IMG/VR virus record: IMGVR_UViG_3300008261_000209
Location: 1-20,250 of that record
Direction: 5' to 3' (one strand)
DNA from: a virus
Length of the DNA: 20,250 nucleotides
Position numbers and translations under genes: made by a program. The notes beneath the pieces were generated by a model. The model had not been told where the DNA came from and ran no database searches. It saw only the letters and a list, made by a program, of their open reading frames with translations. Positions 19,176 through 19,621 of the stretch are shown one piece after another; positions within the stretch are counted from its first letter, which is position 1; every line of letters starts with the position of its first letter.

Positions 19176-19241
19176 CTATCCGTGAACTGACACGACAGTT
19201 TGTACCTCGGGCAGTCAAAGTTGCCCAGGTAGCACGGATAG
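19176..19241 (-). ncRNA. three-way junction element before first leftward gene
   Basis: CTATCCGTG (19176-19184) pairs with CACGGATAG (19233-19241), 9 perfect bp. Inside are two hairpins: AACTG/CAGTT (19185-19200, six-base loop) and TACCT-c-GGGCA / TGCCC-AGGTA (19203-19231, ten bp with one bulged base and an eight-base loop). Only three bases are unpaired at the junction. It lies 25 bases upstream of the start at 19150, where a cis-acting translation switch would act. Confidence 0.7.
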
Positions 19242-19621
19242 TTAAATTGCACGCTGTTTTCTTAATGTGTGTCGATAGTCAGTCCCGCACCTTGGGCTAC
19301 CGATGTCCACTTAAATCGCAAGGCACAATACACCACTACCGTGTACTTTGTGTCCCCAAAAAGGGGTGTTTTAAACGTGTGGATGTCCTGCCCACACTTC
19401 ACCTTGCGCCTGCTTCTAATGGCAGGCTCACCACCGCTTTACTTCCTCTGTCCCATGGACAGACTGCGCCCTGTTGATAGGTCTTCAAACCTAACGGACT
19501 CGGTAACACAATAAGAGCATTTTTTGTGTGCCACTCACCTACAATGTAGGCGGTCACGGGTTGCTTTGAAACCCCACCTTTATACTTTGCTAATCAAAGA
19601 TTAAACAGCATATAAACGTGC
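19176..19621 (-). ncRNA. candidate large structured RNA / leader
   Basis: A 446-base stretch without a credible gene. In the leftward direction it holds a three-way junction (19176-19241) and ten hairpins: 19272-19303 (7 bp including one G-U, plus CCC/GGG), 19324-19352 (5+5 bp), 19354-19366, 19377-19397 (6 bp), 19408-19427 (6 bp), 19447-19463 (7 bp), 19478-19493, 19528-19557 (6 bp including one G-U, plus 5), 19558-19574 and 19585-19599. A long-range helix (GCACG 19249-19253 with CGTGC 19617-19621, and CTGTTT 19254-19259 with AAACAG 19603-19608, with an 8-base bulge) encloses the ten hairpins. Folds are read by eye. It may be a long 5' leader, a processed ncRNA of the ornate phage type (GOLLD and ROOL are known examples of such large RNAs), or an origin-like hairpin cluster. 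Confidence 0.6.

Follow-up and report, generated by a model that had tools for sequence, protein, structure and literature searches.

tmRNA combines an acceptor stem, a T arm and a CCA end in one long RNA. Arms that resemble parts of a tRNA also occur within longer transcripts in the thrS leader and in mascRNA, the latter a substrate of tRNA-processing enzymes with a link to GlnRS (PMC9976931). The bacterial Y RNA YrlA is non-coding, carries a tRNA-like domain and lies within the rsr-yrlBA-rtcBA operon, as described in PMC7790460, and PMC12286853 describes GOLLD and ROOL as large structured phage RNAs that are often near tRNA genes. Here we describe a long structured RNA, read leftward from a virus fragment, that very probably ends in a tRNA-like domain and adjoins a gene that we call F6.

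The RNA resembles tmRNA in being long and in having an acceptor-like stem, a T-arm-like hairpin and CCA, but its 5′ acceptor strand is internal rather than 5′-terminal, and no tag frame was identified; ARAGORN found no tmRNA gene in the window or its relatives. As in the thrS leader and mascRNA, a tRNA-like arm is embedded in a longer transcript, and the thrS leader also mimics an anticodon loop; unlike either, the phage RNA heads a gene cluster, has a body of ∼400 nt and has no adjacent synthetase gene. With YrlA it shares the character of a non-coding RNA carrying a tRNA-like domain, although its neighbor belongs to the unrelated F6 family and it has no match in Rfam. GOLLD, ROOL and OLE are likewise large and structured, but they are not described, in the available text of PMC12286853, as ending in a tRNA-like domain, and the phage RNA has a fixed partner gene beside it. 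An Infernal search against Rfam, a check proposed with the original prediction, gave no match at the gathering score in the window; in L001, L003, L004 and seven other loci, the GOLLD, ROOL, OLE and HEARO models had no match at E values of 10 or below. A known RNA family is ruled out by this absence of an Rfam match, and the RNA is a real one of a kind absent from Rfam. A limited survey of titles and abstracts, in which subscription journals were thinly covered, found no published account of such an RNA.

The window, by which we mean the whole 20,250-base stretch of DNA analysed, is a virus fragment that carries genes for a terminase, a DNA polymerase and a primase/helicase. A leftward gene cluster extends from about 19150 to 3921, and its first gene is F6 (18749–19150, minus strand, 133 aa), recognized as an open reading frame with relatives. 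The RNA stretch lies upstream of F6, with a promoter-like site at 19720–19690 on its far side. Scans with F6 yielded nine viral contigs besides the window, seven of them distinct in this stretch (L002 is identical to L001, and L011 to L010); hits in L014, L015, L016, L024 and L025 were excluded as spurious, the matched DNA reading as coding sequence. A long structured stretch lies upstream of the F6 relative in all nine contigs.

Folding analysis bears out the array of hairpins that the original prediction described. The minus strand from 19690 to 19150 has a predicted energy of −161.5 kcal/mol, compared with −141.4±6.4 kcal/mol for its dinucleotide-shuffled versions (z −3.1), of which 1 in 100 folds as well. 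With a separate shuffle set, z for the leftward RNA was −3.9 over 19640–19174, −2.7 over the body (19640–19244) and −5.0 over its final 70 nt. In the minimum-energy fold, about eleven hairpins occupy 19620–19262 and are followed by a three-way junction at 19241–19176. The hairpins of the body (19634–19244, minus strand; minimum-energy fold and pair probabilities) are at 19620–19575, 19574–19558, 19557–19530, 19529–19506, 19499–19468 and 19463–19447, then at 19427–19408, 19397–19377, 19366–19354, 19352–19324 and 19303–19272. Two G-U pairs proposed earlier, 19300/19275 and 19551/19537, are indeed G-U when read from the minus strand. A long-range helix of 5+6 bp, said to close ten hairpins, was not recovered as described: the nearest helix in the fold, of 5+4 bp (19634–19625/19437–19429), encloses six, with a mean pair probability of ∼0.5. 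Ahead of the body, a leader at 19684–19640 (minus strand), whose start is placed by the promoter-like site, is A/C-rich and little folded. On folding energy alone the ∼400-nt body of the window RNA appears structured, and covariation support within the window RNA is limited to the last 70 nt.

Because the plus strand also folds well, with z −2.7 as DNA and −5.1 as antisense RNA, folding energy alone does not assign the strand. That the plus-strand DNA folds beyond its shuffles, and that palindromes and repeats lie upstream, would suit a DNA element whose hairpins act as a single-strand origin or replication start, which had been named as the main alternative. Comparative evidence points elsewhere. 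A covariance model, R1, built from the last 68 nt of four relatives with the window left out, finds the 3′ domain of the window (19243–19174) at E=1.2e-18 and, with filters off, that of L008 at E=1.3e-4; it does not find L026, where a three-way junction is recognizable by eye and in the fold. In a six-row alignment of the 3′ domain (five rows distinct), 115 of 115 base-pair cells are paired and 10 of 23 pairs show two-sided change; none of 500 shuffles scored as high, and slid versions pair at 30–37%. For the middle domain, 173 of 174 cells are paired across six relatives and 11 of 29 pairs have changed on both sides (corrected register), with helix P1 fully paired in 5 of 6 loci. The search model for this domain, R2, was built from five relatives and had one helix one column off in searches; in that form it finds L008 at E=7e-15 and has no match in the window.

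Covariation in both domains makes the RNA class well supported. The supported helices contain 21 G-U cells, no A-C cell and one other mismatch, and since the 21 G-U cells would be mismatches if read from the opposite strand, the RNA is read leftward. These pair counts indicate that the leftward strand is selected as RNA rather than as an array of DNA hairpins; together with the presence of tRNA-like features on one strand, they leave the DNA element very improbable and displace the single-strand origin from its place as the leading alternative. The homologous contigs, in which missing compensatory changes had been named as the refutation to look for, do hold such changes, in keeping with an elaborate phage RNA on the leftward strand; the changes occur in the 3′ domain of the window and in the middle domain of the relatives, but not in the body of the window, which the middle-domain model does not match. 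Open frames overlap the RNA stretch on both strands. A protein-coding explanation was rejected, since base pairing is what the relatives preserve, and chance folding was rejected because a model built without the window matched it and because the helices stay paired in the alignments. We regard a conserved RNA read leftward as close to certain.

The last part of this RNA (19241–19173, minus strand), defined by R1 and by 23 base pairs in the alignment, opens and closes with an acceptor-like helix (19241–19233/19184–19176) that is followed by CCA at 19175–19173, so that 19184–19173 reads CACGGATAG-CCA; the helix has nine pairs, not seven. Within it stands an anticodon-arm-like hairpin (19231–19203) with the loop ACUUUGAC at 19221–19214, supported by covariation and a constant loop: 6 of 9 pairs of the stem show two-sided change, and the loop hexamer UUUGAC is constant. 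A T-arm-like hairpin, AACUG-UCGUGU-CAGUU (19200–19185; covariation and fold), abuts the acceptor strand. The heptamer CUUUGAC of the window loop equals the anticodon loop CTTTGAC of a tRNA-Gln(ttg) gene in the relative G048. Glutamine determinants in bacteria include U35, G36, A37, U1-A72, G2-C71, G3-C70 and G73 (PMC9976931, Table 1). The window domain carries the anticodon-loop determinants of this type, U35, G36 and A37, in CUUUGAC; if the acceptor is counted as eight pairs, U1-A72 and G73 are present, the second and third pairs being A-U and U-A, a register that is ambiguous.

The likeness is incomplete in the window itself. Its T-like loop, UCGUGU, has six bases and fails the seven-base TTCRANY consensus, a D arm is absent, ARAGORN reports no tRNA and no tmRNA in the window, and the Rfam tRNA model does not recognize the domain. 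The UUUGAC hexamer recurs in the matching loop of L008, G012 and G017 and, on a weak arm, in G021; L026, G048 and G063 have no such loop. A five-pair T arm with a TTCRANY loop is present in G048, G021 and G063, where the G048 and G021 ends are CAA and not CCA, and in minihelices that follow F6 in other relatives. G012 and G017 have the domain in common (E=0.008; 70% over 63 nt), with all four arms (acceptor, D, anticodon, T) still paired despite changes; in such distant relatives the 3′ domain is a near-complete cloverleaf. We consider it very likely, on sequence comparison, that the 3′ domain is tRNA-like. The earlier statement that the element does not match a tRNA thus holds for the RNA as a whole and fails for the 3′ domain, with its acceptor-like helix, CCA and tRNA-Gln anticodon loop. 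A hairpin of the body, at 19574–19558 (minus strand), has a loop, UCAAAGC, that is complementary over six bases to the anticodon-like loop, and fold and complementarity make the two a candidate kissing contact. In six relatives GUCAA lies within an invariant hairpin loop, and the window has UCAAAG in a different hairpin loop; a general kissing interaction between UUUGAC loops and GUCAA was dropped, as the G012 and G017 RNAs are without GUCAA, and the contact is kept as a candidate only.

We scanned 1.11 Mb of strand-bases for tRNA-like elements, defined as a 5-bp T stem with a TTCRANY loop and an abutting 7-bp acceptor, and obtained 15 hits; three sets of simulated sequence yielded 0, 2 and 2. 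Four hits are tRNA genes by ARAGORN and the other 11 adjoin F6: one each in L040, L042, L045, L047, L051, L019 and L149, two in L145, and one on each side of F6 in L134. The scan gave no hit in G041, which carries F6, and no consensus minihelix downstream of F6 in the window. Minimal tRNA-like minihelices of 43–48 nt, consisting of an acceptor, a short GG linker, a T arm and CCA or a near form, with no anticodon arm, directly follow F6 in L040 (16185–16228), L042 (11540–11582), L047 (1929–1972), L051 (10192–10239), L019 (4737–4779) and L045 (18858–18900). Second tRNA-like domains with consensus T loops lie downstream of F6 in L134 (1580–1635; G048), with an extra hairpin, and in L145 (3349–3395; G021). 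As the post-F6 minihelices of L010 (E 1e-4) and L012 (E 2e-5) are also matched by the 3′-domain model, the two elements are probably related.

Genuine tRNA genes occur near the module in relatives, tRNA-Thr in G001 and G003 and tRNA-Gln in G048, and one could suppose that the tRNA-like parts are remnants of decayed tRNA genes, now functionless. Decay would not keep stems paired through two-sided changes over large divergence, as is seen here, and we hold this explanation to be highly unlikely.

F6 members match no Pfam family above the cut-off and no PHROG, F6 has no relative in the PDB by sequence, and a Foldseek search returned nothing at E≤0.001. An AlphaFold model from a wide alignment reached pLDDT 83.7 and pTM 0.76, compared with pLDDT 54.5 from a narrow one, and this gain speaks for an F6 superfamily. 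Its best structural neighbors are twelve entries for p19 of tombusviruses (VIA-align Z up to 4.8 over 92 residues, rmsd 4.0; next row 3.6), a resemblance that is weak by the tool's own yardstick; p19 binds dsRNA, and the model thus gives a hint that F6 could bind RNA. Among 77 further polymerase-bearing records, profile A3 had no hit, and R1 had none in the 24 to which it was applied; both negatives have little power, since G004 and G009, which carry F6, were also missed in this scanning. With a wider F6 profile, A9, F6 heads the cluster in 7 of 50 polymerase-bearing relatives (50 of the 77 records). In a phage collection, tblastn detected no relative of F6 and none of the terminase, a nucleotide search detected no match to the window, and the polymerase of the window matched 948 phage records, every one below 60%. 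Among genome contigs, a scan with profile A2 returned none and a scan with the polymerase returned two, both distant. RNA type seems to track F6 type rather than polymerase, on two comparisons: the window and G012 have polymerases 84% alike, F6 proteins 18–21% alike and different RNAs, and the window and G003 have polymerases at 70%, F6 at 56% and the same 3′ domain.

The position of the RNA relative to F6 bears on the main rival to our reading, that the RNA is a cis-acting leader which controls F6 and the downstream genes through translation or stability, with F6 or host GlnRS binding the tRNA-like arm in the manner of thrS. As a leader would, the RNA stops some 14–25 nt short of the F6 start codon in the window and in nine further contigs with the close F6 family, and 5′ regions with synthetase-binding anticodon-like loops are known (PMC9976931). 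Among the more distant relatives the RNA is upstream of F6 in G012, G013 and G048, but in G017, G021 and G063 the RNA with its tRNA-like end lies downstream of F6, which there has a short leader; the motif GUU(C/A)UUUGACAUA is common to G012, G017 and G063. The lack of a Pfam (above cut-off) or PHROG match for F6 also leaves no sign of a synthetase. Since the RNA is upstream of F6 in most phages and downstream in three, it probably forms an independent unit and is more than a leader of F6. The long regulatory leader originally envisaged is weakened by these three homologous RNAs, and we treat cis control as possible, with the odds well against it.

Upstream of the RNA, a pattern search identified a promoter-like pair (19720–19690, minus strand) made up of TTGAC at 19720–19716, an 18-base spacer and TTAGTTTG at 19697–19690. 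A like pair precedes the module in 6 of 12 relatives, against a background of 0.36 per 900 nt, which is suggestive only of a real promoter. We take TTGAC with TTAGTTTG to be a promoter type of the Bacteroidota, and on that basis presume a Bacteroidota host. Further upstream, at 19735–19749, a palindrome, TTAGAATGATTCTAA (TTAGAAnnnTTCTAA across the sites), is a candidate operator. In 622 kb of strand-bases, TTAGAAnnnTTCTAA has 23 strand-hits at 17 sites, all within the non-coding gap that heads the RNA/F6 module; besides the window, the sites are in L019, L040, L042, L045, L046, L047, L050, L051, L145 and L146, and the palindrome is likely to be an operator for a phage regulator. The window also has a long low-complexity tract of alternating GT/GC (TGCGTG-like) at 19950–20092, with similar tracts upstream of the module in L001 and L008. 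Iteron-like repeats of the type TAACTCATTGATAATCAACAACTTAC stand ahead of the promoter in L001 (5000–5560) and in the upstream regions of L008 and L010.

Past F6, the motif UCUGAGNCCCA (18744–18734, minus strand) is present in relatives as well: it occurs shortly after the F6 stop in L001, L009, L010, G012, G017 (there after the RNA), G021, G048 and G063, among them very distant relatives. It is followed in the window by a terminator-like hairpin, AGGGTGCATTACCCT (18672–18658, minus strand), and a T-run, the hairpin loop being common to G012, G017 and G063. This order of a promoter-like site, a structured RNA, a small protein, a terminator-like hairpin and a long co-directional cluster recalls processive antitermination, for which the put RNA of HK022 and the nut/N system of lambda are the comparison systems; the RNA would be the antitermination leader of the long operon, with F6 in the role of N. 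Strong terminator-like hairpins directly after F6 in L040 (16105–16129), L051 (10342–10317) and L050 (6581–6558) agree with this scheme, but L001, L003 and L009 show no post-F6 hairpin with a U-run, the window has 7 terminator-like sites, below the 12.2 of its shuffles, and the RNA far exceeds put sites in size. The downstream placement of the RNA in three relatives counts against antitermination as it does against cis control, and we judge the scheme improbable.

Sequence comparison establishes the structure and strand of the RNA, the resemblance of the relatives' 3′ domains to tRNA, and the constant neighborhood of F6. RNase P favors acceptor-T minihelices that bear CCA. In the processing model that we propose, a structured RNA of ∼500 nt would be transcribed leftward from a promoter near 19690–19720, where the long leftward (replication) gene cluster begins, and would end in a tRNA mimic composed of the acceptor-like helix with CCA, a tRNA-Gln(UUG) anticodon-loop arm and the T-arm-like hairpin. 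The polycistronic transcript would be a substrate of tRNA-processing enzymes, which would cleave it at the tRNA-like domain next to the RNA, with RNase P acting at the 5′ side of tRNA-like domains and CCA serving for recognition or as the mature end; in the relatives, a second cut may fall at the tRNA-like minihelix downstream of F6. The stable RNA set free in this way and F6 would then act jointly early in infection, conceivably, at a guess, as an RNA-protein particle. We give this processing model, in which the RNA is an independent unit, a probability of about 0.5. A more speculative reading, which we think unlikely, has the 3′ domain act in trans as a glutamine-tRNA mimic: host GlnRS or other tRNA enzymes would bind or charge the CCA end, and the body and F6 would seize early host translation, making the RNA a phage counterpart, by analogy, of tmRNA or of the tRNA-like ends of plant viruses.

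Of most practical use to other workers is the RNA class itself, which is supported by covariation and has an assigned strand, a defined 3′ end and a partner gene. If the processing model is correct, there are DNA phages whose large RNAs bear a tRNA mimic at the 3′ end, and these RNAs are kept with one protein family across distant phages. They would provide a defined RNA-protein pair, open to tests of RNase P processing, GlnRS binding and an effect on infection, and tRNA mimicry, familiar above all from synthetase leaders and the RNA viruses of plants, would extend to the early operon of a phage.
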